A DNA stretch of 64,000 nt from Rhodobacteraceae bacterium EL53. Its GTDB lineage: Bacteria; Pseudomonadota; Alphaproteobacteria; Rhodobacterales; Rhodobacteraceae. Below are positions 10,023 to 55,008 of the stretch, piece after piece. Under the pieces are notes generated by a model. It worked only from the letters and a program-made list of their open reading frames with translations. It searched no databases and was not told the origin of the DNA. Made by a program: the position numbers and the translations under genes. The stretch's first letter is position 1. Every line of letters starts with the position of its first letter. The stretch is from NCBI GenBank assembly GCA_900313015.1, contig OMPR01000009.1:233495-297494 (forward strand), written 5' to 3'.

Positions 10023-10619
10023 ATGGAAGGCCTGAGTGAACGAAAATACGCCGCCCGAGCAGGCCTGTCGCGCGGTGCGATCCAAAAGGCCAAGGCGGCC
10101 GGGCGGCTGGTTTTGCATGCTGACGGCTCGATCGATGCAGCGGCCTCGGACCGGAATCGGGCGGCGATGACCGATCCGTCAAAACAACGTGGCACGACCA
10201 AGGACAAACTCAAACCGGTGCCTGATGCGGCGCTGTCCGCCGTTGGTGAAACCCTGCGCGAACAGGGGCTCTCGGCCCCGGCCTCGGGCGGGAACACCAC
10301 CTTCCTGCAAGCCAAGACCGCCAACGAGGTGTTGAAAGCGCAGGAGCGGCGGCTGAAGCTGCAAAAGATGAAAGGCGAGCTGGTCGACAAGGCTCGCGCC
10401 AAGGCGCTGGTATTCAGGCTGGCACGCGAGGAACGCGATGCCTGGATCAACTGGCCGGCACGGGCGGCGGCATTGATGGCGGCGGAATTGTCGGCCGCGC
10501 TGTCGGAAGCCGGGCAGGATGTAACACTGGAGACAAGTCTGATGCAGAAGATCCTCGAGACCCATGTGCGAGCCCAGTTGGAAGAACTTGGTGCACATGC
10601 CCGGTTCGATCTCACCTGA
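10023..10619 (+). CDS. Terminase small-subunit-like protein
   Basis: The 198-residue protein starts with a winged-helix-like segment ('LSERKYAARAGLSRGAIQKA', 'LVLHADGSIDAAASDRNR') of the Nu1 type, followed by a linker and a long helical region ('LKAQERRLKLQKMKGELVDK') ending in 'VRAQLEELGAHARFDL'. In lambda-like phages this subunit recognises the packaging site and recruits the large subunit. Its end overlaps the terminase large-subunit start. The ATG at 10023 is preferred over an upstream TTG at 10017. Confidence 0.8.
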   Translation: MEGLSERKYAARAGLSRGAIQKAKAAGRLVLHADGSIDAAASDRNRAAMTDPSKQRGTTKDKLKPVPDAALSAVGETLREQGLSAPASGGNTTFLQAKTANEVLKAQERRLKLQKMKGELVDKARAKALVFRLAREERDAWINWPARAAALMAAELSAALSEAGQDVTLETSLMQKILETHVRAQLEELGAHARFDLT

Positions 10620-12564
10620 AACCACAACTGGCATCGGGGAATTCGACGGACACGATGATCTGCGCCGTGCCTGGGCGGAAGGGCTGCAACCCGATGCTGA
10701 TCTGACGGTGTCCGAATGGGCCGATCAATACCGGATGCTGGCCTCGCGCGCCTCGGCCGAGCCCGGACGTTACCGCACCGGGCGCACACCCTACATGGGC
10801 GAGATCATGGATGCGCTCTCGCCCAGCCATTCGGCCCAGCGGGTGGTGTTCATGAAGGCGGCGCAGGTGGGTGCGACAGAAGCGGGCAATAATATGATCG
10901 GGTTTGTGATTGCCCATGCGCCGGGTCCGATGCTGGCGGTGCAGCCGACCGTGGAACTGGCCAAGCGTAATTCGCGGCAGCGGATCGACCCGCTGATTGA
11001 GGAAAGCGCGTCCTTGCGCGAACGGGTGCGGCCATCCCGGGCTCAGGATTCCGGCAATACCATGCTCTCGAAAGAATTCGCGGGCGGGATTTTGATCATG
11101 ACCGGGGCGAACTCGGCCGTGGGCCTGCGTTCGGCCCCGGCTCGTTACATCTTTCTCGACGAGGTCGACGCCTATCCGGCCTCGGCCGACGAGGAAGGCG
11201 ATCCGGTCAGTTTGGCTGAGGCGCGGTCTCTGACCTTCGCGCACCGGCGCAAGGTATTTCTGGTGTCAACGCCAACGGTAAAAGGGGTGAGCCGGATCGA
11301 ACGGGAATATGAGGCTTCGGACCAGCGCCGGTATTTTGTGCCGTGCCCGCATTGCGGGGAACGGCAATGGCTGAAGTTCGAACGGTTGCGCTGGGACAAG
11401 GGCCAGCCGGAAACGGCAGCCTATCAATGCGAAACCTGCGAAGAACCGATTGCCGAACACCACAAGACGGCAATGCTGGAAGCAGGCGTTTGGCGGGCAA
11501 CAACGGAAAGCGCGGACCCGACCACGGTTGGCTATCACCTCTCGGCGCTTTATTCCCCGGTTGGTTGGCTCAGCTGGGAAAGGATCGCACGCAGCTGGGA
11601 GGCGGCGCAGGGATCGGATGATGCCATTCGTGCTTTCAAGAACACCATCCTCGGTGAAACCTGGGTGGAGAGCGGCGAAGCGCCGGACTGGCAGCGGCTG
11701 CTCGACCGTAAGGAAGAGTGGAGTGCAGGCACCGTGCCCTCAAACGCGCTGTTCCTGACGGCGGGCGCGGATGTGCAAAAGGACCGGATTGAGGTCGATG
11801 TCTGGGCCTGGGGCCGTGGGCTGGAAAGTTGGTTGATCGACCACATCGTCATCGAGGGTGGTCCGGGATCGGAAGCCTGCTGGAATGGCCTCACCGATTT
11901 GCTTGGCCGGACATGGCAACATGCCAATGGCAGCCAGATGACCATCGCACGGCTGGCCGTCGACACCGGCTATGAAACCCCGGCGGTTTATGGCTGGGCT
12001 CGGAAAGTTGGCTTTGGCCAGGTGGCGCCAGTGAAGGGTATGGAAGGGTTCAATCGCGCCAGCCTGGTGTCGGGTCCGACGTTTGTGGATACGACCATTG
12101 CAGGCAAACGGTTGCGCCGTGGGGCGCGGCTGTGGACCGTGGCGGTCTCGACGTTCAAATCCGAGACCTACCGGTTCTTGAGGTTGCAACGGTCAACACC
12201 GGAGGAGCTGGCAGCCGGAACGGATTATCCGCCCGGAACCCTGCACCTGCCGGGCTGGATCGACAGCGAATGGCTGAAGCAACTGGTCGCCGAGCAACTG
12301 GTGACGGTGAGGAACAAACGCTGCTTTGCCCGGCTGGAATGGCAGAAACTGCGTGAACGCAACGAGGCGCTCGATTGCCGGGTTTATGCCCGTGCGGCCG
12401 CGTGGATCCTTGGAGCGGATCGCTGGTCGGACAAACAGTGGGATGAGCTAGAGCGGCAGGTGGCGGCTCCAGATGCCGAGGTCGGCACAGGCACGGTGAG
12501 AGCCGTGCGCCAAAACCGCCCCGCGAACCAGCGCCGTTCGGTGCGCTCGAATTACATGAGGTAA
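10597..12564 (+). CDS. Terminase large subunit, GpA family
   Basis: The protein has the packaging ATPase of lambda GpA-type terminases: a Walker A-like 'FMKAAQVGATEAGNN' near residue 85 and Walker B 'YIFLDEVDAYP' near residue 184. A zinc-ribbon-like pair CPHC/CETC follows near 250-285, then the C-terminal nuclease with 'GADVQKDRIEVDVWAW' near residue 390. It cuts concatemeric DNA and pumps it into the prohead. The ATG at 10597 gives 655 residues; an in-frame ATG at 10564 is further inside the small-subunit gene. The frame is complete although the capsid it should serve is missing. Confidence 0.93.
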   Translation: MPGSISPETTTGIGEFDGHDDLRRAWAEGLQPDADLTVSEWADQYRMLASRASAEPGRYRTGRTPYMGEIMDALSPSHSAQRVVFMKAAQVGATEAGNNMIGFVIAHAPGPMLAVQPTVELAKRNSRQRIDPLIEESASLRERVRPSRAQDSGNTMLSKEFAGGILIMTGANSAVGLRSAPARYIFLDEVDAYPASADEEGDPVSLAEARSLTFAHRRKVFLVSTPTVKGVSRIEREYEASDQRRYFVPCPHCGERQWLKFERLRWDKGQPETAAYQCETCEEPIAEHHKTAMLEAGVWRATTESADPTTVGYHLSALYSPVGWLSWERIARSWEAAQGSDDAIRAFKNTILGETWVESGEAPDWQRLLDRKEEWSAGTVPSNALFLTAGADVQKDRIEVDVWAWGRGLESWLIDHIVIEGGPGSEACWNGLTDLLGRTWQHANGSQMTIARLAVDTGYETPAVYGWARKVGFGQVAPVKGMEGFNRASLVSGPTFVDTTIAGKRLRRGARLWTVAVSTFKSETYRFLRLQRSTPEELAAGTDYPPGTLHLPGWIDSEWLKQLVAEQLVTVRNKRCFARLEWQKLRERNEALDCRVYARAAAWILGADRWSDKQWDELERQVAAPDAEVGTGTVRAVRQNRPANQRRSVRSNYMR

Positions 12565-12566
12565 CC

Positions 12567-12782
12567 GTGACCACACTGGCAGAACTGCAAACCCGGCGCG
12601 AAGCCCTGGCGGCCTCGCGCGCCAGTGGTGTGGCCCGGGTCAGCTATGACGGCAAAACCGTGGAATACAACAGCCTTGCCGAAATCGACCGCGCAATCGA
12701 TGTGCTGGACCGTGAGATTGCCGCCTTGGAAGGCCGCAGGGTGATCCGGCAGGTCCGAGTGACCACAACCAAGGGATTGTAA
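12567..12782 (+). CDS. gpW-like head-tail joining protein
   Basis: A 71-residue protein (starts MTTLAELQTRREALAASRAS) with the helix-strand-helix layout of gpW-type joining proteins: 'GVARVSYDGKTVEYNSLAEI' then 'DRAIDVLDREIAAL'. Its position between terminase and portal is the standard one in lambda-like phages. It starts with a GTG-like leader three bases after the terminase stop, and its last base is the first base of the portal start codon. Confidence 0.85.
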   Translation: MTTLAELQTRREALAASRASGVARVSYDGKTVEYNSLAEIDRAIDVLDREIAALEGRRVIRQVRVTTTKGL

Positions 12783-14266
12783 TGGGCCTGTTTGATGCTT
12801 TTCGCCGCCGGGAGACTGGCGGCCCCAGTGGCGTGCGCGCCCGTCTCGAAGGGGCCATGTCGCGGCGTCGTCTGAGGGGCTGGCAACCACCGCTGGAAAA
12901 CATCAACTCGCTGGTGGCTTCAGGCGGGCCGCGCTTGTTGGCACGCTCGCGCGAGTTGGTTGTCACCAATGGCTACGCCGCCAATGCCTGTGCGGCTTAC
13001 GCGGCCAATCTGGTAGGGGACGGGATCAAACCCTCGTCTTTGATCGAGGACGGGGAATTGCGGGACCAGGTCCAACGCCAGTGGCTGGCCTGGACCGATC
13101 AGGCGGATGCCGACGGACTGACGGATTTCTATGGGCTCCAGGCGATGATTGCGCGCGAGATGTTCGTAGCCGGAGAATGCTTTGTGCGCATCCGGCCACG
13201 TCGAGCAGAAGACGGCTTGCCTGCACCGATGCAATTGCAGCTTCTGCAATCGGAAATGCTGCCGTTTGAGAAGACCGAAACCGCCCCCAATGGCAATCGC
13301 ATCCGCTGCGGCATCGAATTCGACCTGATCGGGCGGCGCGTTGCCTACCATTTTCGCCGCCGCCATCCGGGCGACAGCACGGACAGACGGGACGTGATTC
13401 CAGACACAGCGAGAGTGCCCGCCAAGGATGTTCTGCACATCTACCGCGCCATTGATGCGGGGCAGATACGGGGTCTGCTGCATGTGGCACCGGCCATGGT
13501 GCGGCTGTTTCTGCTCGATCAATACGATGACGCTGAACTCGACCGTAAGAAAACCGCCGCCATGTCTGCGGGCTTCATCACCAAGAATGCGCCAGAAGAA
13601 GCGTTGATGGGAGAAGTGGAAGATACTGGTGAAGGTATTGTTATCGCCAGTCTGGAACCGGGAACTCTGCAGGTTCTGCTGCCCGGTGAGGACATCAAAT
13701 TCTCGAGCCCCGCCGATGTGGGCGGCGGCTTTGAAGCGTTTCAGTATCGCACCTTGCTGGCAATCTCCGCCTCTCTTGGCTTGCCGTATCATCTGGTCAC
13801 GGGCGATGTGCGGCAGGCGAATTATTCCAGCCTGCGCGCCGAGCTGGTCGAGTTCCGCCGCAGGATTGGCCAGTTGCAACACGGGGTGATGGCACATCAG
13901 TTCTGCCGTCCAGTCTGGCAACGCTGGCTGGAAGCGGCGGCGCTGTCGGGCGCGCTCGATCTGCCGGACATGGCCAGGGCCAAACCGGTCCATTGGATCC
14001 CGCCACGCTGGGATTGGGTCGATCCGTTGAAGGATATTCAGGCGCAATTGCTCGGGATCGAAGCCGGGTTGATGTCTCGCCGCAAGGCGGTCGAGGCCAC
14101 CGGCTACGATATCGAGGAGATCGACCGTGAGAATGCGGCGGATGCCGAGCGCGCAGCGGCTCTCGGCCTCAATTACAGCACCAGCCCCAGCGAGACGCAG
14201 GGCGCACGGGCCTCACCGCAAAAGCAGGCTGACCCCAAGCAAACGCCCAAACAATCGAACCAATAG
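12782..14266 (+). CDS. Phage portal protein, lambda gpB family
   Basis: This 494-residue protein has family features including 'RSRELVVTNGYAANACAAYA' early, 'GECFVRIRPRR' and 'VLHIYRAIDAGQIRGL' in the middle, and 'SLGLPYHLVTGDVRQANYSS' near residue 335. The portal forms the ring through which DNA enters the head. Its length is normal and the frame unbroken. It overlaps the gpW-like gene by one base and is followed 9 bases later by the head protease gene. Confidence 0.93.
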   Translation: MGLFDAFRRRETGGPSGVRARLEGAMSRRRLRGWQPPLENINSLVASGGPRLLARSRELVVTNGYAANACAAYAANLVGDGIKPSSLIEDGELRDQVQRQWLAWTDQADADGLTDFYGLQAMIAREMFVAGECFVRIRPRRAEDGLPAPMQLQLLQSEMLPFEKTETAPNGNRIRCGIEFDLIGRRVAYHFRRRHPGDSTDRRDVIPDTARVPAKDVLHIYRAIDAGQIRGLLHVAPAMVRLFLLDQYDDAELDRKKTAAMSAGFITKNAPEEALMGEVEDTGEGIVIASLEPGTLQVLLPGEDIKFSSPADVGGGFEAFQYRTLLAISASLGLPYHLVTGDVRQANYSSLRAELVEFRRRIGQLQHGVMAHQFCRPVWQRWLEAAALSGALDLPDMARAKPVHWIPPRWDWVDPLKDIQAQLLGIEAGLMSRRKAVEATGYDIEEIDRENAADAERAAALGLNYSTSPSETQGARASPQKQADPKQTPKQSNQ

Positions 14267-14275
14267 GGAACCACC

Positions 14276-15319
14276 ATGAAAAACTGGTATTCGATCTGCG
14301 CCCTCAATGATGGCGCGGAAATCTCGATCTATGATGAAATAGGCACTTACGGCGTTTCGGCGAAAACCTTTCTCGCTGGAATCGGTAAACTGCCTGACAA
14401 GGCCCCGTTGATCCTGCGTCTCAACAGCCCGGGTGGCTCTGTGTTCGATGCGGTGGCGATATACAATGCCCTGCAAAGGCACGCAGGCAAGGTCACCGTG
14501 AGTATCGACGGCATTGCCGCTTCAGCAGCTTCCTACATCGCCATGGCGGGTGACGAGATCATCATGCCGGAAAACGCCTCCCTGATGATCCACGATCCTT
14601 CGGGCATGGTGATGGGCACGGCGGCAGACATGCGCGCCATGGCTGAGGCGCTTGACAAGATCGGTGCCAGCCTGCTGCGCGGCTATGCGGCGAAATCCGG
14701 CAAGGCGGAAAAGGATATCGCGGAACTGATGGCCAAGGAAACATGGCTGGATGCCGCCGAGGCGCTGGAGATGGGCTTTGCCGACACGATGTCCGAGCCG
14801 GTCAAAATCGCTGCCAGCTTTGATGTGAGCCGGTTCCAGAATACGCCGCCGGAAATTGTGGAGGCGGTGAAGGCTGCCGATGAGCCAGTAGTAGTGCTCA
14901 CTGAACCCGAACCAAATCCTGACCCAGCGGCCAAGCCAAACCCCGATCCGGACCCCGCGGCCATCCGCTGCGAGGCCATGACCTATGCCAAAACTGTTGC
15001 CGATCTCTGCCACCTTGCCGATCAGCCGCATATGGCAGCGGGCTTTCTCAACTCCGAAACCAGCCTCGAGGATATCCGCAAAGCCCTGATCGACGCCAGG
15101 GCCGCCGAGAAAGGCGCGAAACGCGCGCTCGCCGATGTTGGCCTCGATGGCGAAGAAGCCGCGCTCGATATCCGCGACCTGCGCTCCTTGCTCGATTTTA
15201 TTCGACTGGTGTGCCGTACCGCCATGCAGACTGCCGTGCGCATGATCACCACCGGTGTGATGCTGGCACTGCTCGCCGGGGTTGCGATTAAGATGAAGAT
15301 TTTCGGCGGCGGCCCGTAG
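14276..15319 (+). CDS. ClpP-like head maturation protease fused to a DUF6127-like tail
   Basis: Residues 1 to about 200 are a ClpP-type serine protease: 'LRLNSPGGSVFDAVAIYNAL' near residue 45, the catalytic Ser in 'DGIAASAASYIAMAG' near 85, and His in 'LMIHDPSG' near 105. A Pro/Asp linker follows. The end from about residue 275 ('EKGAKRALADVGLDGEEAA', 'DIRDLRSLLDFIRLVCRTAM', then a membrane helix and 'KMKIFGGGP') is not protease-like. It matches the C-terminus of the small membrane phage protein DUF6127, which normally sits just before the lysis genes. The junction near 15100-15115 therefore looks like an in-frame deletion fusion that removed capsid and tail genes. Confidence 0.8.
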   Translation: MKNWYSICALNDGAEISIYDEIGTYGVSAKTFLAGIGKLPDKAPLILRLNSPGGSVFDAVAIYNALQRHAGKVTVSIDGIAASAASYIAMAGDEIIMPENASLMIHDPSGMVMGTAADMRAMAEALDKIGASLLRGYAAKSGKAEKDIAELMAKETWLDAAEALEMGFADTMSEPVKIAASFDVSRFQNTPPEIVEAVKAADEPVVVLTEPEPNPDPAAKPNPDPDPAAIRCEAMTYAKTVADLCHLADQPHMAAGFLNSETSLEDIRKALIDARAAEKGAKRALADVGLDGEEAALDIRDLRSLLDFIRLVCRTAMQTAVRMITTGVMLALLAGVAIKMKIFGGGP

Positions 15320-16517: not shown

Positions 16518-17189
16518 TCATTCAACGACGGGATAGAACGGTTGCCCCCAGTTTTCATTTGGGTTGTCCATCATGATGTCGACGAAAACAGGCATCAGAA
16601 AACCCAATATCTCCGCGCCGTCCCGAACCTGCGCCCGATTCACTCCGCTGTTCCAGGTCGAACCGCCGTGAACAAGCTGGTTGCGCAGAACGTAGAGCCG
16701 ATCGAAGACAAAGCTCAAAACACGTGCTGTATCACCGGCCTGAAATGACTGCGCGAATGATCTGGCAGAAGCTTTGAAGCGGTCCGCCCAATCCTCGAAG
16801 CCATCGATTCCGTTGTGGTGCTGCCAGAACGGATTGAAAACATAGCGGTTTTCCATAAGCATCCGAACCGGCCCCGAGAACTGCTGCCAGAGCGCCGTGT
16901 AAATGCGCTGCTCATTATCCAAAGCGACAAGCCGCCCAAAGAAGTCGACAAATGCGGCGCGTTCACCTGAGGTCGCAGTCTGGAACTCCTGCTCGTCGGC
17001 ATAGGCGGCATTGAAAGAGATCCAGAGGAAAATGAAGCGTGCGTCATCATCGTCATCACAAGCCTCTGCACGACCGATCCAACTGATGGCTCGATGGGCG
17101 CGCAGTCCCATCGTTTCGGGAAAAGCGTCACGAATGGCGCGTTGTTTTGCTTTCAGTGTCGCATGGTCGAGACTATTTTTCATCGCCAA
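16518..17189 (-). CDS. HEPN-domain protein, possible RNase
   Basis: The 223-residue helical protein has the motif RNQLVH at residues 169-174, the R-N-x3-H signature of HEPN ribonucleases. An N-terminal helical region ('LRAHRAISWIGRAEACDDDD', 'RFIFLWISFNAAYADE') precedes it. HEPN proteins cut tRNA or mRNA in toxin-antitoxin and anti-phage systems. The gene lies 16 bases after the WYL regulator on the same strand, so the two probably form an operon. The frame is intact. Partner and target are not visible. Confidence 0.75.
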   Translation of the reverse strand: MAMKNSLDHATLKAKQRAIRDAFPETMGLRAHRAISWIGRAEACDDDDDARFIFLWISFNAAYADEQEFQTATSGERAAFVDFFGRLVALDNEQRIYTALWQQFSGPVRMLMENRYVFNPFWQHHNGIDGFEDWADRFKASARSFAQSFQAGDTARVLSFVFDRLYVLRNQLVHGGSTWNSGVNRAQVRDGAEILGFLMPVFVDIMMDNPNENWGQPFYPVVE

Positions 17190-17205
17190 TTCCTATTCAA
17201 AATGA

Positions 17206-18188
17206 TCAAGGCAGAGCGTCGAAATCCGACCTCTGATGGCCCGCCACCAAATCGCGGAGACCTTCGGGCATCAAGACTTCCACCTTGTCGCCCCATTGAT
17301 AGAGATGCCACGCCATTTCCAGCCAGCCTGCAGCTTGAAACCTGACGATCAAACTGCCGTCGCCTTGTGGTTCGACAGTTTGAGTGGGGTGAAAACGGAA
17401 TTCGGCGGCGCGCGCGGCCGCCTTGGGGGCGAAGCGCCACACGACCTCACCGTATTGTTCGGGGTCCTGGTAGACGCCAAAGGCCCGTGACGCGTGGTCC
17501 TCGAGGGAGAAGCCCGAGGCAAGAGGGAAGCTTCGTCCAGAACTTTTGCCTCATGGATCCGATCCATGCGGAAATTCAAGATGGTTTCACTACGACCCGG
17601 CTGGCGGGCAACGAGGTAGCTGCGGTGGCCTAATAGCATCCCGTGCGGTTCAATCTCCCGCGGTTTTGCGTCCGTTGCACCGTAAATCACCCGCAGCCTA
17701 AATGGACCGCGTAACGCCTCGATGACCGCATCCGTCACCGCAGGCATGAGAGCTACTTTGGGTCCAGGTCGTGTTACTTGCCCCAAACTTGCCAGAACCG
17801 CTTCCGCGTCAGTTTCAGACCGCAGTGCATCGCGTGTATCCAGGCGCGCGAGAAGTCTGTCGCGAAAGTATTCCAAGCTGCGTGCATGGCGTAGCCGACC
17901 GTCTCCGTGTGCGGTACGGGTGGCGATTTCCAGAGCCTCAATCGCAGTTTCCTGCCGGGGTTGAAGGGATTCTGGAATTGGTGTCTCCAGCCGCCAATGG
18001 CGCCGCCTTTCGGCATCATCCATGGTTGTCACATTGTCAAATGTGGCATCCAAGGCCTCGGTCATCCGCTGAGCCGTGCGGTGCGATACGTCAAACTCAG
18101 CGCAGATATCTTCGAGGCTGACACCGCCCCGGCGGGACGCTGCCATTTGGGCCAGACGAAGCAGATCCTGCGCTTTGGCGAAAGACAT
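17206..18188 (-). pseudogene. WYL-domain transcriptional regulator, frameshifted
   Basis: From the ATG at 18186-18188 the protein starts MSFAKAQDLLRLAQMAASRR with a helix-turn-helix ('VSLEDICAEFDVSHRTAQRM'), then the WYL region ('LRVIYGATDAKPREIEPHGM', 'RSYLVARQPG'). Near 17500-17525 the frame is lost. The proper C-terminus continues in another frame ('ASGFSLEDHASRAFGVYQDP', 'WRFAPKAAARAAEFRFHPTQ', 'DKVEVLMPEGLRDLV') to the stop at 17206. WYL regulators such as BrxR and CapW repress anti-phage systems and sense ligands through the WYL domain. The gene is divergent from the nuclease-helicase genes, a classic regulator position. Confidence 0.85.
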
Positions 18189-18212
18189 TTGACCTCCATG
18201 CCAGAAATTGAC

Positions 18213-18225
18213 ACCGTCACACGGT
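18213..18225. promoter_or_regulatory. Candidate operator between divergent WYL and nuclease-helicase genes
   Basis: ACCGT-CAC-ACGGT is a perfect inverted repeat in the 105-base gap between the WYL start (18188) and the small + strand gene (18294). A TTGACA-like -35 hexamer overlaps its left side. WYL repressors of defence loci bind inverted repeats in such gaps. The repeat is short, so it could be chance. Confidence 0.4.
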
Positions 18226-18293
18226 AAAGTTGAGAGTGAAGCCTGTCGAGATGATTCTCTTTGAGACGGCCATTTGGATAAAAGGATATTTGG

Positions 18294-18554
18294 ATGACTA
18301 CTAATGTAATCAAGATTGAGAGGGTGTCGCCAAGGGGTGGCATTGCCGAGGAGCCAGTATGGAGTGCGAAGGGTTACTGCCTCGGGGATCCAAAATTCGG
18401 GGCTGAAAAACACCATGCCAAGAATTCAGTATTTGTAAAAACACTCGATGAAGCAGCAGAGCTTATTTCTAAGGGGTTTTCACTGCGAATGGTCGGAAAG
18501 GGGCAACGGGCTTCATTGGTTTCTCCGAAGGGCCTGAGAGTCGTTCGCGCTTAG
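18294..18554 (+). CDS. Small hypothetical protein at the head of the nuclease-helicase genes
   Basis: An 86-residue basic protein (starts MTTNVIKIERVSPRGGIAEE) without membrane segment or known motif. It lies between the candidate operator and the RecB-like nuclease gene, 71 bases before the latter. The C-terminal half ('VKTLDEAAELISKGFSLRMV', 'SLVSPKGLRVVRA') looks like a compact alpha/beta fold. I do not recognise the family. It may be a regulatory or accessory component of the locus. Confidence 0.5.
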   Translation: MTTNVIKIERVSPRGGIAEEPVWSAKGYCLGDPKFGAEKHHAKNSVFVKTLDEAAELISKGFSLRMVGKGQRASLVSPKGLRVVRA

Positions 18555-18625
18555 GAGTTAAGAGTACCTTTGAAACGCGCGGGATTCCGTTTGTAGGTTT
18601 CATTAAGATCAAACAAGGCCGACGA

Positions 18626-21600
18626 ATGCGTACTATTGCCAGCAAAATTCTTTTATCCGCTACCGACCTCATGCGTTTCATGGGGTGTTCTCACGCGTCG
18701 ACTCTTGATCTGGCCTATATGAGGGGCACCGGGCCGGTTCCCTGTGCAGACACAGAAGACGCAGCTCTTCTGCAAAAACAGGGTGATGCACACGAGGCGG
18801 CGCATCTGAGCCGGCTCAAGAAGGCAGGGCGCAGTGTTTTCGAGATTGAACACGGCTGTCTGGCAGACAATGCCAAAGCCACGAGATTGGCTCTCGCCGA
18901 CGGTCCCGACGTGGTGTTTCAGGGCGCGTTCTTGTCAGGAAATTGGGGCGGATGGTCGGACTTCCTGGAGCGGGTCGAGACACCTTCGGCACTTGGGGCG
19001 TTTAGCTATGAGGTGGCCGACTCCAAGCTGAAGCGTCGCGCGGACCCAAAACATGTACTGCAACTGGTTCTTTATTCCGATCTGTTGGCAGAGATTCAGG
19101 GCGTGGCGCCCGAGTTCGCGCATGTCGAATTGGGTGACGGCACCCGCGCGACGCTACGCCTTGCCGACTATTCCGCTTACGCCCGAATGGCGAGAGAGCG
19201 GCTGGAAGCCTTTGTCGCTAGTCCGCATCCCACACGTCCGATGCCCTGTGCCGATTGCGGTCTTTGCCGTTGGGCCGATCATTGCGAAAGCGTCTGGCAG
19301 GCCGAGGACAGCTTGTTCAATGTTGCCAATATCAGCCGTGGTCAGGTGAAAAAGCTGGAAGCCGCTGGCGTTGATACGTTGGAAGCTCTTTCGGCTCTGG
19401 ATTGCCCGATCCGTGGCATGTCCGAAAACACGCTGGCCCGGCTTGTCGTCCAGGCGCGCTTGCAGTAGGCCCGCAAAACCGGAGAGCCAGATTTTGAACT
19501 GCGGGCTCCGGAGCCCGGCAAAGGCTTTGATCTTTTGCCGGAGCCGCAGCCGGGTGATCTGTTCTACGACATCGAAGGCGATCCGCATTTTGACGGCGGT
19601 CTCGAATATCTGCACGGGATCTGGTTCGACGGGCAGTTCCAGGCTTTCTGGGTCCATGATCATGATGCCGAAGCGCGGGCATTGTCCGACTTGTTGGCGT
19701 TCTTTCGTGCGCGGATCACGCAATACCCCGCCGCGCGCATCTATCACTACGCGCCCTACGAGATCACCGCGCTCAAACGGCTGACTACGAAATATGGGAT
19801 TGGTGAGGCCTATCTTGATCGGCTTTTGCGGGAACGTCGCTTTGTCGATCTGTTTGCAGTGGTTCGGGGCGGGCTGATCGGGTCGGAACCAAACTATTCC
19901 ATCAAATCGATGGAGGCCTTCTATGATCGCAAGCGGGATGGCGAGGTCAAGACGGCGGGGGGATCGGTCGTGGCCTATGAGCGTTGGCGCGAAACGCAGG
20001 ATCAGCAGATCCTCGATGAGATTGAAGATTACAACCGCGTCGACTGCGTCTCGACGGAAGAATTGCGTGATTGGCTGGTTGGTTGTCGCCCCGTCGGCCC
20101 ATGGCCGGTGCTTGCTCCGGATGCCGGAGACAAAGAGGCGGAAGAGGATGCCGACACCCAAGCGCTACGGAACGCAATCGCGGCATCGGCGTTGCCGGAT
20201 GAGCGACAGGAGATGCTATTCAACCTTGGACTTTTCCACAAACGCGAGGTGAAGCCCGCTCAATGGGCGGTGTTTGACAGTGCTGCCAAGGACGAGGATG
20301 ACCTGATCGACGATCTCGATGCTCTTGCCGGCTTGGTAGCGGTCGGTCCCGTCGAGCCGGTCAAGCGATCCTATGCCCGCAGCTACAGTTTTCCGCCTCA
20401 AGAGACCAAGTTGCGGCATGGAAAAAGGGCGACTGTCCCAGTTTTTGACGCGCCGCCCACGACGGTCGGAATTGAGAGCCTGGACCGGCGTGCACGCGAA
20501 ATCTTCGTCAAGGCGGGACCGGGCAAGGCGCATCTCTTGGCCGATCGGTTATCTTTGCACCCGGACTGGCCATTGAATACGGGCGTCATAGCTTCAGCCC
20601 TGCGAGACGTGATTGCTGATCAATGCGGTCCGCGCCGATTCACTGCGGTGGATGATCTGCTTTCGCGCGCCTCGCCGAAACTTCGATCCGGGCCGAGAAC
20701 CGACCTTCTTGAGGGGGCTGACCCTGTTTTGGGCACCATTGAGGTGGTAAACGACATGGATGAGACCGTCTTGCCAATCCAGGGGCCTCCGGGCACCGGC
20801 AAGACCTATATCAGTGCCCGCGCAATCCTCTCTTTGGTCCGTAAGGGCCATCGCGTCGGTGTCACCTCTAACAGCCACGAGGCGATCAGGAATGTGCTGA
20901 TGGGCTGCCTTTTGGCGTTGGAAGACGAAGACCTGCCGATCAATCTCGAACTCATCCACAAGGTTTCTGGCAGCGAGGATGGGTATCCCGAAGACTGCGA
21001 TGTTCATCGTACGACCGACAACGCAGAAGCCGCCAATGGCGGGCATGTGGTGGGCGGCACGGCGTGGTTCTTTGCGCGCGATGAGAATGTTCAGGCCTTC
21101 GACTGGCTGTTCGTGGATGAGGCCGGTCAGGTCGGCCTTGCCAACATGGCTGCTATGGGACGGGCGGCAAGGAACATTGTACTGGTCGGTGACCCCCGCC
21201 AATTGCCGCAGGTTATCCAGGGCTCGCATCCCGAGCCAGCAAACATGTCCTGCCTTGACTGGATGCTGGCGGAAAAAGCGACAATCCCGGCCGACCGGGG
21301 CATTTTCCTGCCTATATCGCGGAGGATGCATCCGGATGTCTGTGGGTTCATTTCCCAGCAGGTCTATGAGGGCAGGCTGACCAGCCACCCCGATACGGCT
21401 CTGCAACGAGTGACCGATACTAAGTTGCCTGAAACCGGAGCTTTTTGGGTTCCTGTTGCCCATGAAGCCAATGCCCAGATCGCTCAGGAAGAAGTTGTTG
21501 CTATTGGAAATAGCATAGCTGAGCTGCTTGGCGGGAACTGGACAGGCAAGGAGAGCAGTACACGGCCGATGCGCGAGACGGACATCATCGTCGTGGCCCC

Positions 21601-21919
21601 CTATAACGCGCAGGTGAACGCGCTACGGGACGCCCTTCCTTCGGGTGTCCGCGTTGGCACAGTGGACAAGTTCCAGGGACAGGAAGCCCCGGTCTGCCTT
21701 GTATCCATGACAGCGTCCTCCGCCGAAGAAACCGCGCGAGGGATGGAGTTCCTGTTTTCGCTGAACCGCATCAATGTCGCGGTGTCACGCGCCAAGGGAC
21801 TCGCATTGGTTTTTGGAGCGCCGCGATTGCGTGAGGTGAAGTGCAACACTGTTGAGCAAATGCAGCTGGTGAATACGCTGTGTGCCTTTCAAACTAACAC
21901 TCTGGGCAAAGGGATCTGA
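18626..21919 (+). pseudogene. TM0106-type RecB-like nuclease / Upf1-like SF1 helicase, one amber codon
   Basis: One frame of 1098 codons is broken only by TAG at 19466-19468. Before it is a RecB-like nuclease ('FSYEVADSKLKRRADPKH') with a four-Cys cluster 'CADCGLCRWADHC' near codon 205, as in FeS nucleases. After it comes an RNase H-like segment ('DLFYDIEGDPHFDGG'), then an SF1 helicase: Walker A 'QGPPGTGKTYIS' near codon 720, 'FVDEAGQVGLA' near 831, 'VDKFQGQEAP' near 1013 and 'INVAVSRAKG'. The natural protein would degrade and unwind nucleic acid. The second part might still be made from an internal start. Its stop is 59 bases before the large ATPase gene. Confidence 0.85.
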
Positions 21920-21978
21920 ATGCGAATTTCTAAATTGGCCACTAAGAAACACGGTAAAACTGGTTGGGAACACAGCTA

Positions 21979-24900
21979 ATGCAAACAGCGGCCTCTGAAG
22001 AAAAACAAGATCCAACACTTTTGGCTTCGCCCGAAGACTGGGCGAACTTTGTCGCCAGAGAGCTAAATGATACGCACGAGGCATATTTAAAAAAACCTGA
22101 TTTTCTTCTAGGTCATTCTCGGACGGAACGTCAGACTTCAGCAGATTACGCTGGGCGAGAGCTATTGGAGTTGGTGCAAAATGCCGCTGATGCGGCGGCG
22201 GAGGCAGGCGGTGCTGGGAAAGTCCTGATTGAGGTGACTCAGGATGGCCTTTTTGTCGCAAATAGCGGCCAGCCATTTCGAACTGGGGGCGTTTCGTCTC
22301 TTATGACAGCGCATACCAGCGACAAGCCTACACGTGCCGCCAAGATGATTGGTGCAAAAGGCCTTGGTTTTCGCGCGATTTTAAATTGGACGGAAGCACC
22401 CTTGATAAGCAGCGGCGAACTTGAAATCGGGTTCTCTCGTGTTTTTGCGAATGCGCAAGTTTCCGCTTTGGCGATCCAAAATAGAAAAATCGGAGATTTG
22501 TTCACCACCAAAAGTGAAGAATCTCCCCCTCTACTTGTCTTTCCTGCGACTGGAGCAGAGTTGGAGCGACTTGGTGACGACCATGTTGCAACGATGTTGC
22601 TACATACCCGTGCATTGCGAAAGGAAGGGTTTGATACCGTTGTAGCTGCTCCATTCCATGAAAGGCGCGCATTCGATCGGGCCATTGAACAAGCGAGCCA
22701 GTTTGAACCGAGTTTTCTTCTTTTTGTGAAATCTCTAGACAGTATATGTATTCGATTTCCTGACGAGCAAGCACGAGTTTGGAGTAAAGAAATAGAAGAA
22801 AATGGTGATGTAACACTCTATTTGGAAAGCGGGCCGGACACTGGAATTCAAAGCTGGATTTTGCGCCACAAGCAGGGATCTATAGGTGATGGAAAGGCCG
22901 AGCGGCAATACGAACTGGCGATTGCTTTAAGGCTAGATGAAGAAAGCAAATTTGGACGGTTGCACAGTTACTTTCCGACATCACTACCATTGCCGTTTAA
23001 TGGCTTGTTTCACGCCACTCTTGAGCTCGATTCAAATCGCAAGACAATACAAGAAGATTCTGATCTCAATGAAGGTGTACTGACTGCTCTTGGTGAGTTT
23101 CACGCCGAAACTCTCCATGAGTTGAGACAGGGGGAGCGACTAAATGGAAACCCACTATCTTGGCTAGTCGTGGAAGAGGGGGCCACGTTTCCGGATTCTC
23201 TAGAAATTATGGCAGAAAGTACATGGCGCCGAACGCGTGAGCTTCCTTTGATAGAGGGTTTGGACGGGGTGTGGCGTACGGCCTCGGAGAGCAAAATCGG
23301 CCCGCATGGATACTCGAGTTTTATTCCTTCCCGTCTCTTTGGCGAACTGGTCAAAGTTGAAGATGAGAATGTGGAACAATTGCTCCGCGACAAGATAAAC
23401 GTTCCTGAAATCAATCCTAAGAAGATCCTTAAGCGTCTTCGTGAAGGAAGTCTGAATATCCAGGAACGAGCTCGGGCTATCGTCGGTGTTGCATCGTCCT
23501 TGCCCGAGGAACATCATGATCGCCGCCTTTTTCTGGATATAAACAGTGATCAGATGCCGGCAGCGGTTATCCCCTTTCCACCGCCGAGCAAGGACGAACA
23601 GCGCCGCAGTCTTCCTGCCTGGTCGTCCGCTCGCTTCATCCACCCCGAGCTTTGGGAACAGCTAGTGGATCAGGCGCCAGGCTCTACGCTTCGCGAAAAG
23701 CTCTCTGAGTTAAAAGGTTTTCGGGTAACCGAGTTCAGCGTGGATAGTGTCATCAGTGCCCTGCGTACCAAGTTGGGGGAACTGCTAAAGTCCGGCCATC
23801 CTGAACCAGACAGGATACAATCTGAATTTCTGACCGAAATTTTGATTTTGTATGACGAGAAACGCAACCGGCCCACAGGTTTGTTGAACGTTCGATGCAA
23901 GGATGGAAGTTGGAGGGACGTCACGACTGTTCATCTCTCAGAGCATTATGGCCAAAGTGGTCGGATCAATGCCGAGTTGTACAAAGCCGATCCGGAGTTA
24001 TTGGTTGCGGCTCCCGACCAGAATGGGCTTGCGAATGAAGGCGTAGATCTGACTGAATTCTTGATATGGTTGGGAATTAATCAATGGCCAAGAAAAATGA
24101 CGGAGCCACTTCCGAGCAGGTGGGAAGCGCAAATCCTGCAGGATTTGCCCGCCTCTTTCACAGTGTCAGATGGAAATAAGTTTCAAGAACTTCAGCGTGA
24201 TCAACTGCAATGGGGCTACACGATCAGGGCAGAGTTTGAAACCGTCGAAAAGCTGGATGAAATTCTGTCGCATGCGCCATCCGACGCAATTCTCGCCTGG
24301 TTGTCACAGGATGAACGGCTAGACCCGATAGCTCCGGTGTCAGAGTTTACGGTTTCAGTACAGGGTCGGAGCAGCGGAAATGCCTCATTTCGTGCGTATC
24401 AAGGACCACTGCCGAACATTGTACGACACAGCATTCAACAAAGCGAATGGCTGGTTTGCAGGGATAAAAAGAAGCATTCTCCGCAAAATGTGATGACCCA
24501 GCCCGGGGCGCTTTCTGTACTCTTCAATTCCCCGAAAGCAATCAGCGCTGAAAGCGAGGCAGACTTTGGTTTGTCTCCTGACCTTTTGCGGAGGGGCCTC
24601 GAACGCGCGGGTGTGGCCCGGGGATTGGGCGATATACCTGAGTCTCAAGTCTATCGACTGTTGTTGTCTCTTCCTATGCGGAAAATTAAACCAGAATTGG
24701 CCAGTCGATTGTATCTCCAACTTCTGGAGCGGGAAGTATTCGATCCCGAAAAGGGTGGAGCAGATCGTGAAGCCTTCCTCAAACAAGGTCGGGTTCCGGT
24801 GCAGACCGAAGAAGGTTGCAGTTGGGGCGCTCGGGCCGATACCTATTATGCCCACCGTGACGACCTCCCCGAAGCGGCCCGACCTCACCTTACACTCATT

Positions 24901-26184
24901 GATCTGCCCTCACGTCGCAATGCAACCCAGGTTGAAGCCCGGTTTGGAATCCCGGCATTGCGCAAAGGTAATATGGGTGTCCGCGTGCTCTCCGTCGAAG
25001 CCGAGAGTGGAAACCTGGCCCAAGACTTGAATTACCGTTTTGACCAAGCTCGTCCCTTCATTTTGGCTCTTCGTTACCATCTCTCTCCAGAGGAAGGGGC
25101 ATTGCGCCGATTGAAAGCACTAGACCTCGCAGTCGCGAGTCGAGTGGAAATGGAGCTATCTATCAACGATCGGCACATTGTGAACGACTTAGAACCTTTC
25201 AAGCATACCCTGAAAGACGGTGAGTTAATTGTCGCAATTGATAGCACTCGTCCCAACGAAGAAAATGTTGATCTTGGCCTTCACGCCATTTCTGATGGCT
25301 TGGCGGAACTCTTCGAACTTCAATCCAATGCTGATTTCACATCGCTTCTGACTGCGTCCTCGCCGGCTCTTCGCAAGAGCCATTTGAAACGCGCTCTGCC
25401 GAGAATAAGTTCCGACGAATTGGAGGCTGCGCTATCAGGGGTCGGCTATGTCGAAAGCACCGATATGGAGATTGGCGTAGACGCCGAAATGTTGGCACAG
25501 GGGCCATCGGAACCTTCTCAAAACAAGACGACGGCGCTAAGAGATGCCATGCAGGATCAGGAGAGCATCCCGCAGGCCCCGGAAGCGAACGATAGTATTG
25601 ATGAAAGAAAAAATGTTGAGCCAGGAGAACTTAGATTAAAGGCCAAGGCAAAACCATCACCAGAAATTGATCAAGCATTCGGACAGAATTCAGGGCGCGC
25701 GAAGGTTCGTGTGTCTGGAGCTACTGGCCGAATGGGCAACCGAAACCCGAAAGATGTGGAGCAGGCCGCGGATGCCGAAAAATGGACAGTCGCATTTGAG
25801 GTAAGCCAGAAACGATATCCACTGTTGGTTGCACACCTGCAGGGGAAGGGCGCGTTTGGGTGTGATTGCTTAAGTTTTGTCTCTGAAGATGATCTGAGGT
25901 CTTTTCAGGATGACCCTGGGAAAATTGAACTAGTGGATCGTTTCATTGAAACGAAGTCTGGGGCGGTTCGTTTTACAAGAAATGAATGGGATGCGGCGGA
26001 GAAGTTGGGAAACCGCTACTTCGCATATCGCGTTAGTTTTTCGTCTGGACAACGCGACAAAGCGCAATTGACAATTGTTCAAAACCCTAGGGCGCAATTA
26101 CTGGCGATCCGAGTGGAGCATGAACTGTTGATGGAAAGAGTAAACTCACGAGACGAGTTTGAATTATTTCAAGCTGATTCTTGA
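21979..26184 (+). CDS. Large HSP90-like ATPase (sacsin-like) protein with DUF3883-like C-terminus
   Basis: The intact 1401-residue protein has an N-terminal GHKL ATPase domain: N-box 'RELLELVQNAADAA' near residue 60, then 'FVANSGQPFRTGGV' and the glycine loop 'GAKGLGFRAIL' by residue 135. This resembles the sacsin N-terminal repeat. A long middle region without recognised motifs follows. The last 130 residues ('RFIETKSGAVRFTRNEWDAA', 'LGNRYFAYRVSF') match DUF3883, which has a nuclease-like E-x-K pair. Large GHKL-DUF3883 proteins occur in anti-phage islands. The ATG at 21979 is preferred over the TTG at 21964. It is less GC-rich than the nuclease-helicase gene before it, which suggests a different origin or age. 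Confidence 0.75.
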   Translation: MQTAASEEKQDPTLLASPEDWANFVARELNDTHEAYLKKPDFLLGHSRTERQTSADYAGRELLELVQNAADAAAEAGGAGKVLIEVTQDGLFVANSGQPFRTGGVSSLMTAHTSDKPTRAAKMIGAKGLGFRAILNWTEAPLISSGELEIGFSRVFANAQVSALAIQNRKIGDLFTTKSEESPPLLVFPATGAELERLGDDHVATMLLHTRALRKEGFDTVVAAPFHERRAFDRAIEQASQFEPSFLLFVKSLDSICIRFPDEQARVWSKEIEENGDVTLYLESGPDTGIQSWILRHKQGSIGDGKAERQYELAIALRLDEESKFGRLHSYFPTSLPLPFNGLFHATLELDSNRKTIQEDSDLNEGVLTALGEFHAETLHELRQGERLNGNPLSWLVVEEGATFPDSLEIMAESTWRRTRELPLIEGLDGVWRTASESKIGPHGYSSFIPSRLFGELVKVEDENVEQLLRDKINVPEINPKKILKRLREGSLNIQERARAIVGVASSLPEEHHDRRLFLDINSDQMPAAVIPFPPPSKDEQRRSLPAWSSARFIHPELWEQLVDQAPGSTLREKLSELKGFRVTEFSVDSVISALRTKLGELLKSGHPEPDRIQSEFLTEILILYDEKRNRPTGLLNVRCKDGSWRDVTTVHLSEHYGQSGRINAELYKADPELLVAAPDQNGLANEGVDLTEFLIWLGINQWPRKMTEPLPSRWEAQILQDLPASFTVSDGNKFQELQRDQLQWGYTIRAEFETVEKLDEILSHAPSDAILAWLSQDERLDPIAPVSEFTVSVQGRSSGNASFRAYQGPLPNIVRHSIQQSEWLVCRDKKKHSPQNVMTQPGALSVLFNSPKAISAESEADFGLSPDLLRRGLERAGVARGLGDIPESQVYRLLLSLPMRKIKPELASRLYLQLLEREVFDPEKGGADREAFLKQGRVPVQTEEGCSWGARADTYYAHRDDLPEAARPHLTLIDLPSRRNATQVEARFGIPALRKGNMGVRVLSVEAESGNLAQDLNYRFDQARPFILALRYHLSPEEGALRRLKALDLAVASRVEMELSINDRHIVNDLEPFKHTLKDGELIVAIDSTRPNEENVDLGLHAISDGLAELFELQSNADFTSLLTASSPALRKSHLKRALPRISSDELEAALSGVGYVESTDMEIGVDAEMLAQGPSEPSQNKTTALRDAMQDQESIPQAPEANDSIDERKNVEPGELRLKAKAKPSPEIDQAFGQNSGRAKVRVSGATGRMGNRNPKDVEQAADAEKWTVAFEVSQKRYPLLVAHLQGKGAFGCDCLSFVSEDDLRSFQDDPGKIELVDRFIETKSGAVRFTRNEWDAAEKLGNRYFAYRVSFSSGQRDKAQLTIVQNPRAQLLAIRVEHELLMERVNSRDEFELFQADS

Positions 26185-27467: not shown

Positions 27468-30348
27468 TCAGTAGTACTCCCGGATGTAGCCGAAGGCTCG
27501 CTCGAACAGCTCAGCGTCCTCGTGCTGCTTGTATTTGAACAGGGTCTGCCGCAGAGACTTTTTCACCTCGCGTTCGCCAGCATGGATGGCGTGCCATCCA
27601 CCGAACCGGACTGCGAGAACAATTTCGTCGATGTCGTCGACGATGCGCCGAACCATGATCGGGATCTCTCCGTTCTTGGCTTCCTCAAAAAGATCGGTGA
27701 GTGCCGCCTTGCCACGGTCGATGTCTTCCTCGACAGGGGTTTCGCGTTCCATTTTGACGACATTCTTTGCGAGCTTGAGCAGCTCTTTCAGGAAATCAAC
27801 ACTGAGAAGTAAACCTTGCTGATGCCGGTTTTTCAGGCCTTCAAGCCGCTCGGCCAGTGCCTTGTACTGAGGATTGCCTGTATGCTTTCGAAGGCGACCT
27901 GTCAGCTTGACGGAGATTTCCTTCGTCTTTTCTCAGGGTCGGGATTGCCGAGAACCGCCTCAAGAAGTTCCGCGCCCATCACTAATGTGTCGCGATCATC
28001 CCGCACGGTATCGACGTGCACGTTCTCATGGATCAGCTCAATAGTTTTTGCACCAGGGCGATGCCAGAGAAGTCGACCGATGCCGGTTGACGGCTTCAGC
28101 GAATCGTACACTTGCGTCAACTAACGGTAGTCCTTTTCGTACGATGTTAAAATTGGATCCAGCGAAAGTGCCTCCGAAATGCGGTTCAAGATACTGAAGT
28201 CAGGGGCGAAGGCGTCGCGCCGCTCGTCATTGGGCAGGCAGTCCTGCGCGGCGATCAGGCCCTCGTACCCGGTTAGGATTCAGTCGACGCCAGCGAAATC
28301 TTCCAGGCATTTCTGGATGGCCGAGGGCAGCATCGCCGCCAGTTCAGAAATGTTGGAAAAGGCTTTCCGAAAGCCTTTTCGTCGAATTTCAGCGACTGTG
28401 TGACGTCATCGAAAATCCCAAGGTAGTCCACAATCAGACCGTGGGTTTTCTGCTCGCTTTAGGGACGGTTTGTCCGACAGATCGCCTGCTGCAGTGTGTG
28501 ATCGCTTAGCGGTTTGTCTAGTTAAATCGTCTTAAGGATCGGAGCGTCGAACCCCGTCAGCAGCTTTGATGTCACAATGACGGTCTTCAGTGGGTCTTTG
28601 GAGTCGCTGAACCGGTCAAGCAGCTTCTCTTCCGCATCCGCGGCATACTGATCCTCTCCGCTGTTCACTGACATGACGATGTCGGATGCTTCTGGCGGCA
28701 ACGACTTGTCGAGCTCTTGTTTGTAAACCAGGCTGCTTTCACAGTCGAAGGTGACAACCTGCGCGCCGAAACCGTTTGGCGCGACCGTCTCATAATAGTG
28801 CTTGGCGATGTCGCCACAGATCGCGCGGATGCGTTCGGGGGCCTTCACGAGGATCGACATCTTGGAGGCGGCACGGCCGAGCTTGTCTTCGTCCGTCAGA
28901 CGATCGGTCAGTTCGGCATAGGCCGCTTCGATTGCCTGCTGGTCAATGTGCAGATCCACAAGCCGCGGATCGAGTCGTTCAGACAATAGCGGCTCATGTA
29001 GCCCTTCTAATCGATCTCGGCGCCGAAGGCGTAGAAGGTGTTCCGGTCAGGCCCAACAGAAACGCGTTCGGCAACGCCTCACGCATCTTGCGGCCCAGAC
29101 CGCCTTCCTGCGTGCGGTGCGCTTCTTTGACCATGACGATGACGTTGTCGCGTTCGTTCAGGACACCATCTGCCTCGCCGAATTTGTGGATCGTGTTGAT
29201 AATGACCTTTCTGGTGTCTTTGGACAGCAGATCAGCCAGGTCCTCGCGGATGTTGGTGCGCACAAGGTTGGCCACGTTGGCAAAGTAGAAGGTGCCAGCG
29301 GTCTGGCTGTCGAGGTCGATGCGGTCGACCACTACCAGAACGGTCGGGATCTTGAGCGCCGGGTGCAGTCGCAGCTTGCGGGCGGCGAATAGCATCAGCA
29401 GCGACTTGCCCGGCCCTTGGAAGTGCCATATCATGCCCTCGCGCACCTGACGGGTGACGACGCGCTCGACGATCTTGTTGACGCCCTCGACCTGTTTGGG
29501 TAGCGGGCGATAATCTTGATGCGCTGCTTGCCCTTCTGCGTCGCGATGGCGGTGAAGTTAGCGAGCAGTTCCAGCACCATCGCCGGGCGGAGCATGATGG
29601 TGACTGCCTTTTTGATCTCGCCCACGGATTGTAACGCACCTTCATCCGCCCGCCATGGACCCCAGAGATCGACAGGCAAGCGGACAGAGCCGTAGTGGTA
29701 CTCCTTGCCCTCGGTCCCGACAGAAAAAACGTTCGGTACGAACAGTTCCGGTATGTTCTTCTCATAATTGTCATGGACCTGAAGTACAGCGTCGAGCTAG
29801 CTTTGGCTGGAGCGTACCGGCGTCTTGGTCTCGATCAAGACAAGCGTTAGGCCGTTGACCAGCGGCACCAGATCAGCGCGTTTTTCGGTCTTGCCAGCGT
29901 GGAAGGTGAACTGCTGGGTGACGGCAAAGCTGTTCTGTTCGATGTCGTCGAAATCGATCAGGCGGATGGTGACATGCTCGCCATTTATGCCAAAGGGCAT
30001 GGAGCGTTCGCCGAGCATCCAGGCGCCGAATTCCTCGTTCGCCTTCACCAACCTGTCCGACCGCGCGTTCATGACAATGACGCGCAGGCGATAGAGCACG
30101 TCGTCCAAGCAGCCCGGATTGGCGGCGATGTCGGGGTTCAGACGGATCAGGGCATCGCGCAGAAAGGGTTCGACCAGTGCCTCCTGCGACTGGCGTGGCA
30201 GGTCGGCATGGCCGACAAAATGCAAGCCGAGGCCGGAGATCTTGCTTCCCTGCCGGGCGAGGCCGGTTGTGACGGTAGCGGGGCCGTTCATCGCGTTGAG
30301 AGGGTCCCGGATGAAGGCTTCGACGGTGTTGGCTTCGTTGAATGTCAT
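27468..30348 (-). pseudogene. hsdR: Type I restriction enzyme R subunit (hsdR), multiply disrupted
   Basis: The pieces tile a whole HsdR of about 960 codons. N-terminal nuclease: 'LTLVLIETKTP' with D-ExK residues. Then an amber at 29797-29799 in 'SSQS*LDAVLQVHDNYE', a frameshift near 29500, motor motifs 'IWHFQGPGKSLLM' and 'VMVKEAHRTQEG' (relatives have DEAH), a frameshift near 29000, 'LLTGFDAPIL', and TAA at 28522-28524 and 28459-28461. More stops lie at 28280-28282 and 28121-28123. The C-terminus 'GEREVKKSLRQTLFKYKQHE' to 'FGYIREYY' is clear. HsdR translocates and cuts DNA. This copy is dead many times over. Confidence 0.93.
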
Positions 30349-54908: not shown

Positions 54909-55008
54909 TTTAGACCGCCTTTCGCTACCTGGTGTCGAAGGGCAATAAGACCAACAATCTGTTGGTGCGGCAGCGTTGCCCCACATTTTTAAGGGAAAGG
55001 GACTTTCC

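Follow-up and report, generated by a model that had tools for sequence, protein, structure and literature searches.

The genome of Rhodobacteraceae bacterium EL53 (G000; 4.86 Mb in 18 contigs) carries, in a stretch of 64 kb that is referred to here as the window, a group of five adjacent genes which encode, from left to right, a HEPN-like protein and a WYL-domain regulator on the minus strand and, on the plus strand, the product of an 86-codon open reading frame (ORF), a nuclease-helicase of the TM0106 family and a GHKL ATPase of the sacsin type. Comparison with related loci shows that the core of this group is the divergent WYL/TM0106 pair, usually accompanied by the HEPN-like gene, and that the slot directly after TM0106, whose occupant is called the payload here, is exchangeable. 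All positions are those of the window.

The genes of the window and their condition

The nuclease-helicase gene spans 18626-21919 (+), or 1098 codons, which agrees with the 1100 codons given in a first-pass annotation of this DNA; its reading frame is, however, not open, as an in-frame TAG at 19466-19468 separates the nuclease domain from the RNase H domain. Both pieces match the family model TIGR03491 (112.9 and 134.1 bits; curated cut-off 97.45). The piece before the stop (18626-19465; TIGR03491 E 1.8e-32) holds a Cas4/RecB-like nuclease domain, and the second holds an RNase_H_2 domain (19559-20080; PF13482, E 9.9e-27) and a superfamily 1 (SF1) helicase domain of the DNA2/UPF1 type (20762-21820; PF13087, PF13086 and PF13604, AAA_11/12). 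Among 55 aligned proteins, conservation of at least 96% is seen at C21, C211, C214, C220, D112, D132, K134, D315, E317 and D828-E829 and at seven of the eight Walker A positions, the cysteines, aspartates and lysine of the nuclease domain included. In the numbering of L040, D132 and K134 belong to the nuclease, D315 and E317 to the RNase H domain, and the Walker lysine is K723. From Cas4, DNA2 and UPF1, we take these to be the iron-sulphur, PD-(D/E)XK, RNase H and helicase residues. The sequence matches of an intact homologue in the PDB include SMUBP-2, DNA2 and UPF1.

The ATPase gene (21979-26184, +) is open and, as first described, encodes an HSP90-like ATPase of 1401 codons from the ATG at 21979 (1406 from a TTG at 21964), with a sacsin N-terminal ATP-binding domain (22156-22407; NF047352, E 2.4e-20) and invariant ATPase-type residues. 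Over residues 23-1161 it matches the PADLOC model PDLC03964 at E 7.4e-254, which places it in the Tiamat family as TmtA. For the DUF3883-like end claimed for this protein, the observations are mixed. Pfam finds no such domain in the window protein; PF13020 is found in 13 of the 90 relatives listed, and D1301, E1329 and K1331 of the corresponding (NO VEIN C-terminal) region at 25753-26088 are invariant in 35 of 35 aligned proteins. A search of the PDB with a TmtA profile was unproductive.

The HEPN-like gene (16518-17183, -; ORF to 17189) encodes a predicted RNase of 221 amino acids (aa) from its ATG. It contains the RNQLVH motif reported earlier (R167-N-Q-x-x-H172), and the R, N, Q and H of this RxxxxH motif are invariant in 19 of 19 homologues; relatives are annotated as HEPN in their records. 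The 86-aa protein is likewise present as an open ORF (18294-18554, +), with a mixed alpha/beta model (predicted local distance difference test, pLDDT, 81) that has no PDB match at E 0.001. The WYL gene (17209-18188, -) was rightly recognised, with PF13280 on its N-terminal frame at 33.5 bits (cut-off 21.8; E 4.2e-8), but the gene itself is frameshifted at 17520-17532; in tblastn with an intact Roseovarius WYL protein, its two frames jointly cover residues 1-327 of that relative.

Of the five genes, two are broken and three, those of the ATPase, the HEPN-like protein and the 86-aa protein, are open. With a frameshift in WYL and a stop codon inside the nuclease-helicase frame, the module copy in the window is probably decaying, and the core is probably no longer working in this strain. 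An assembly error is the alternative to real lesions at 17.5 and 19.47 kb; a metagenome protein, P0005, is nearly identical (99%). Read-through of the amber codon as normal decoding was considered and rejected: 20 of 22 distinct TM0106 matches from genome searches of the order and the class have no internal stop (the second stop-bearing match is that of G128), and the window WYL gene is broken as well.

A conserved core with an exchangeable partner

The same five genes occur intact, in identical order and orientation, on the Haematobacter massiliensis plasmid pOT1-5, so that the set does recur in other genomes. Among genome contigs with a TmtA at least 52% identical to that of the window (best segment), all 14 loci have TM0106 immediately upstream (the L007 contig begins inside TM0106, and TM0106 of L022 is broken). 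These loci have a same-clade WYL gene in 12 cases (the WYL protein of L019 is 38% identical), HEPN in 10 and the 86-aa gene in two, and none of the TmtA loci examined at this identity lacks TM0106. Distant TmtA genes (about 35-43% identity; six genomic, three plasmid) are accompanied by TM0106 in 0 of 9 loci within the available flanks, which for L016 come from a contig of only 5 kb; L018 (TmtA 28%) has TM0106 upstream. A TmtA tree of 20 rows, drawn with L018 left out, separates core-associated from lone proteins by one change.

A census with TM0106 as bait, at an identity of at least 60%, comprises 28 loci: 13 on plasmids (read from 19 full-length matches at 72% or above), 14 in genomes and one on an IMG/VR contig. 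G307 (59%) and G302 (54%) lie under the 60% line, and the TmtA-type loci L003-L022, found with a TmtA bait, stand outside the census. By hand-assigned classes, the slot after TM0106 holds a McrBC-type payload in 14 loci, a sacsin-type payload in six, an SbcCD-like payload in three and none recognised in five. McrC is recognisable, though in some cases degenerate, in 13 of the McrBC-type loci, and the other has only a McrB-like N-terminal fragment (the McrB fragment of L062 was judged by eye). The SbcCD-like payload consists of a phosphoesterase and an SMC-type ATPase, and its three loci are close relatives (TM0106 95-96% identical). As for the sacsin-type payloads, those of the window, L059 and L106 match TmtA models over most of their length, the latter two at E 0 with a second model, PDLC03971, and that of L040 is 57% identical to the window protein. 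The payloads of L102 (truncated where its contig ends) and L109 (read in its short version, L086) resemble a second, 2103-aa sacsin protein of pOT1-5 that itself partially resembles TmtA. In many loci, DUF4357 is encoded by a small gene of its own ahead of TmtA; in L100, L101 and L115 it forms the McrB N-terminus. Because the same domain stands alone before TmtA and fused in McrB, both payload kinds may be able to use the same reader.

The first-pass annotation had taken the five genes for one regulated system. The identical set in Haematobacter, the same set in Paracoccus shanxieyensis as far as the contig reaches, and that of Gemmobacter with one extra gene would fit a single dedicated system of WYL, HEPN, the 86-aa protein, TM0106 and TmtA. 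Nevertheless, the ATPase on its own already counts as a member of the listed Tiamat system, the HEPN-like and 86-aa genes are optional (in 10 and two of the 14 close TmtA loci, as given above; the 86-aa gene in 10 of 44 loci scanned, the window included), and the TM0106-baited census meets other partners oftener than sacsin-type ATPases. A dedicated five-part system is the least probable of the readings considered here, and the partner census rules out the five genes as an exclusive set; what is left is that the five act together where they co-occur.

The core is spread over many alphaproteobacteria and is uncommon. With E 1e-100 as the limit, 12 of the 244 genomes searched in the order and nine of 385 in the class have a TM0106 match, the window genome included; a TmtA search of the same 244 genomes returned only the window, and a scan of genome contigs with TmtA alone was unproductive. 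Intact modules include the McrBC form of Rhizobium daejeonense and the TmtA form of Gemmobacter nectariphilus. TM0106 searches of two further orders (61 and 43 genomes) returned only the centre genome, and that of a phage collection was unproductive. One genome, G206, has three cores: one with a sacsin protein of the 2103-aa type, one with a TmtA of 1479 aa and one with a TmtA-family gene on its HEPN side.

Several arrangements were seen at more distant relatives or elsewhere around the core. At L094 (2210-14523), ZorA, ZorB, ZorC and ZorD (Zorya type I models) are co-oriented with TM0106 (42%) and with a WYL gene (34%) just upstream on the same strand, and at L108 ZorB and ZorD lie upstream of TM0106, with HEPN and McrBC downstream. 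Cassettes of multiubiquitin, ThiF E1 and DUF6527 genes follow a 51% TM0106 relative with a divergent WYL gene (L119, 11386-13196) or lie beside a distant relative (L121, 4600-7957). Pairs resembling SbcCD are found on the opposite side of the core, by HEPN or WYL (L010, 1-3740, judged by eye; L061, 5067-10105, and L067, 5973-10738, annotated), which is perhaps a second slot. On the HEPN side of L104 (1-4042) there is a helicase of at least 1347 aa with UvrD and DEAD domains, and L105 has a similar-looking ORF.

Junctions, mobility and regulation

Eleven pairs of loci with similar cores were compared at the payload junction (blastn, E 1e-8). In L004, with TmtA, and L090, with McrBC, 4.88 kb of core is 95.5% identical; the similarity is lost 28 and 13 nt before the TM0106 stop codon, the payloads of about 4.6-4.7 kb are unrelated, and beyond them 501 bp match at 96.8%. 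In nine of the 11 pairs, the closely similar stretch breaks off 13-40 nt ahead of the TM0106 stop. These include L008/L040 and L005/window, in which both loci carry TmtA and weaker matches of 69-80% continue inside the payload; for L005/window, the junction lies at 21880-21925, with close similarity ending 34 nt before the stop and a match of 70.5% over 380 nt inside TmtA. As for the remaining pairs, similarity runs through the shared DUF4357 gene and stops at +335 in L006/L059, and continues past the stop through the common payload in L063/L064. The point of partner exchange is thereby constant and lies within the final codons of TM0106. That TmtA loci were partly found by a TmtA bait affects their number, not their junctions.

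A TM0106 tree of 38 rows shows 17 changes of payload kind, where 500 shuffles average 19.8 and 31 of them give 17 or fewer; TmtA against McrBC alone gives nine changes, with 9.3 in shuffles. Left out of this tree and its tests are L011 (TM0106 100% identical to L040), L110 (identical to L102), L022 and L109 (TM0106 broken or truncated), the partial loci L112-L114, and the distant or long-branch loci L066, L067, L107, L108, L119 and L120, which are present in a tree of 44 rows. The distances of the neighbouring proteins correlate with those of TM0106 at rho 0.79 for HEPN, 0.56 for TmtA, 0.43 for WYL and 0.26 for McrC.

The gene that follows TM0106, either the payload itself or a small preceding gene, starts at -40 to +18 nt of the TM0106 stop in 28 of 34 payload-bearing core loci by mechanically assigned starts, often with an ATGA overlap. 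This tight spacing and the overlaps suggest that TM0106 and the next gene are translationally coupled. The spacing is looser in pOT1-5 (94 nt) and in the window (44 nt, 59 if counted to the ATG).

These observations bear on whether the neighbourhood is a coincidence of defence islands, with a self-sufficient WYL-TM0106 unit and with Tiamat, McrBC and others inserted at a hotspot and functionally uncoupled from it. Relatives of McrC occur without TM0106 (L129 and L132, with 10 kb upstream covered), and payloads may therefore act on their own, with defence-island effects accounting for part of the neighbourhood; likewise, five of the 28 cores have no recognised payload and the nine distant TmtA genes lie alone in their flanks. 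Mere coincidence is harder to reconcile with the spacing of the next gene, with the presence of TM0106 at every TmtA of 52% identity or more in the loci examined (14 of 14), and with a junction that lies inside TM0106's own last codons. On balance, functional uncoupling is considered unlikely.

Cores are located on plasmids, beside prophage tail genes and beside RepB and serine-recombinase genes. A right flank with RepB-like partition proteins is common to L003, L004, L013, L090, L104, L105 and L111, three of which have TmtA and four McrBC. Where the sequence suffices, a large serine recombinase is found in this flank, to the right of the payload in L003, L013, L105 and L111. The flank with RepB and serine recombinase is likely a mobile element. 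The HEPN end of the core comes just after tail genes resembling those of gene transfer agent (GTA)-like prophages in L005, L008, L009 and L102 (DUF2793 in all four, Phage-tail_3 in L008, L009 and L102), and this adjacency suggests carriage by prophages.

The window itself has a prophage remnant at 10564-15319 (+), as earlier reported, with terminase gpA (10564-12564; PF05876/PF20454), portal (12782-14266; PF05136) and ClpP-like protease (14276-15319; PF00574) genes. The type I restriction locus reported on the other side shrinks, in the portion scanned, to a 183-aa HSDR_N fragment of a decayed restriction gene among short ORFs (29797-30348), with recA next, and type I restriction was rejected as a component of the system since only this fragment was found. 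Farther away, 54976-59445 encodes a protein of 1489 aa with RTX repeats and a VWA domain.

Upstream of TM0106 lies a palindrome, TGTCA-N5-TGACA, which is represented in the window by the candidate WYL operator TGCCAGAAATTGACA (18199-18213, one mismatch). With at most one mismatch, 31 of the 38 core loci have it, at 95-109 or 428-572 nt upstream of TM0106, although it was noticed in the same sequences in which it was later counted; each match is reached by at most 3% of 200 shuffles. The palindrome is beside the WYL start in most loci; the WYL gene starts elsewhere in L103 and L117 and was not found in L115. The seven misses are L007, which has no upstream sequence, L018, L101 and L111, in which WYL was not found, and L019, L062 and L106, with a WYL of 51% identity or less. 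Across the 4.86-Mb genome, an extended pattern is matched exactly once, in the window, and once more with a mismatch, on another contig. The palindrome is likely the operator of the WYL regulator. BrxR-type regulators are similar in that the WYL gene lies beside a defence locus and has an upstream inverted repeat; BrxR is described as binding inverted repeats with a 5-bp spacer, which is the spacing found here, but its repeats are 11 bp long (PMC9122601, NAR 2022), against arms of 5 bp in the putative operator.

Relation to known systems and proposed function

No named system was thought to have this exact gene set. At the level of protein models this holds for the core, since TM0106 is absent from those of PADLOC and its NCBIfam name does not refer to defence, and fails for the ATPase, which is listed in Tiamat. 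Tiamat is listed as a one-gene system, whereas TmtA, matched here over most of its length, lies downstream of WYL-TM0106, in most cases together with HEPN and frequently with a DUF4357 gene, and the core-associated TmtA proteins form one clade and the lone ones another. Of the other systems compared, Mokosh (MkoA/MkoC, in the helicase region) and Druantia (DruK) show only partial helicase or nuclease similarity to the window set. Mokosh requires a complete MkoA/MkoB or MkoC set; Mokosh and Druantia were both rejected, as only parts of their models are matched and none of their other genes was seen in the window set. Zorya enters through L094, where ZorA-D follow a distant WYL-TM0106 pair.

The type II CoCoNuT systems are described as combining McrBC with the UPF1-like helicase CnuH and the HEPN protein CnuE, their McrB having an NxD motif (PMC11090510, eLife 2024). 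The McrBC form of the module with HEPN encodes the same three kinds of activity and may work like a CoCoNuT. It differs in a helicase with its own nuclease and RNase H domains, in HEPN as a separate gene, in a replaceable McrBC and in the McrB motif, which is NxxD (MNTADR or MNAADR) in 10 of 10 McrB proteins read. McrB is absent from the window itself. Since the motif is NxxD and not NxD, the module is not a CoCoNuT. Accessory genes added to Tiamat or to a CoCoNuT-type McrBC, as a variant of either, would account for the match of TmtA to the PADLOC Tiamat models and for the company that McrBC keeps with a UPF1-type helicase and a HEPN RNase; given the NxxD motif and the nine distant TmtA loci that have no core in their available flanks, such a variant is highly improbable. 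The nuclease-helicase also recalls Bad, a bacterial DNA2-like 5'-3' helicase-nuclease with four cluster cysteines (PMC7430649, NAR 2020), in its iron-sulphur type nuclease joined to an SF1 helicase, from which, set side by side by description only, it differs by the RNase H domain in between; the main text of that paper does not contain the words phage or operon.

The window is best explained, with a probability of roughly 0.6, as a damaged copy of a mobile module that consists of the core and an exchangeable downstream partner and is likely anti-phage, the partner being predicted to detect and cut foreign DNA and TM0106 to degrade it. Under this explanation, WYL would repress the module via the palindrome and release it on infection or DNA damage. 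The main payload would be a nuclease driven by nucleoside triphosphates (NTPs) that recognises the invader and makes ends: a GHKL ATPase with DUF3883 in TmtA, a GTPase with a nuclease in McrBC, and an SMC-type ATPase with a phosphoesterase in the SbcCD-like pair. TM0106 could then load on these ends and resect in the manner of DNA2, and the HEPN RNase may act as a late fail-safe. The common NTPase-plus-nuclease look of the three payload kinds owes its TmtA part to the conserved residues and to a published remark that calls DUF3883 a novel restriction endonuclease domain (PMC3710099).

Several points weigh against this explanation. The nuclease nature of DUF3883 depends on those residues and that single remark, and a defence function of the module as a whole is read from gene content. 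WYL is less constant than TM0106 and HEPN, as a WYL of 60% identity or more is present in 29 of 38 core loci (one as a fragment), a WYL of at most 51% in four and none was found in five (two of which have little or no upstream sequence), and as its rho is below that of TmtA; the palindrome count has the circularity stated above. The HEPN-like gene is present in 25 of the 38 loci, two of them with fragments. Of 19 members, 12 match the Pfam model HEPN_RiboL-PSP with E no higher than 1, and the best match (0.076) is below the cut-off; the structure model is all-helical (pLDDT 74) with no PDB fold match at E 0.001, and a profile search of the PDB was unproductive. Cores without a recognised payload and McrC relatives without TM0106 count on the same side.

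A broader proposal is put forward tentatively, at somewhat less than even odds: the WYL-controlled DNA2-like nuclease-helicase would be a degrading back end shared by front ends of unrelated kinds, namely Tiamat, McrBC and the SbcCD-like pair, and perhaps also Zorya and the ubiquitin-like cassettes. On plasmids and prophages, recombination would swap these front ends at one fixed slot, so that phage sensing and DNA destruction evolve separately. No description of the core or the slot was found in PADLOC protein models or in the literature searched (mostly open-access, few papers in depth), and no paper on TM0106/TIGR03491, alone or with WYL, in a search of mostly open-access literature. The module would thus be a mobile defence chassis with a plug-in slot, of which the regulator-helicase core and the slot are apparently undescribed and the ATPase is already listed as Tiamat.

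A functional slot would explain how defence systems of unrelated kinds gain a shared degradation engine and regulator. The TM0106 family gains a likely role, that of DNA degradation in defence. We know of no established mechanism for Tiamat, and the exchange of payloads offers a natural swap experiment for it: the role of TM0106 with McrBC, an enzyme that makes DNA breaks, would predict the product of TmtA.

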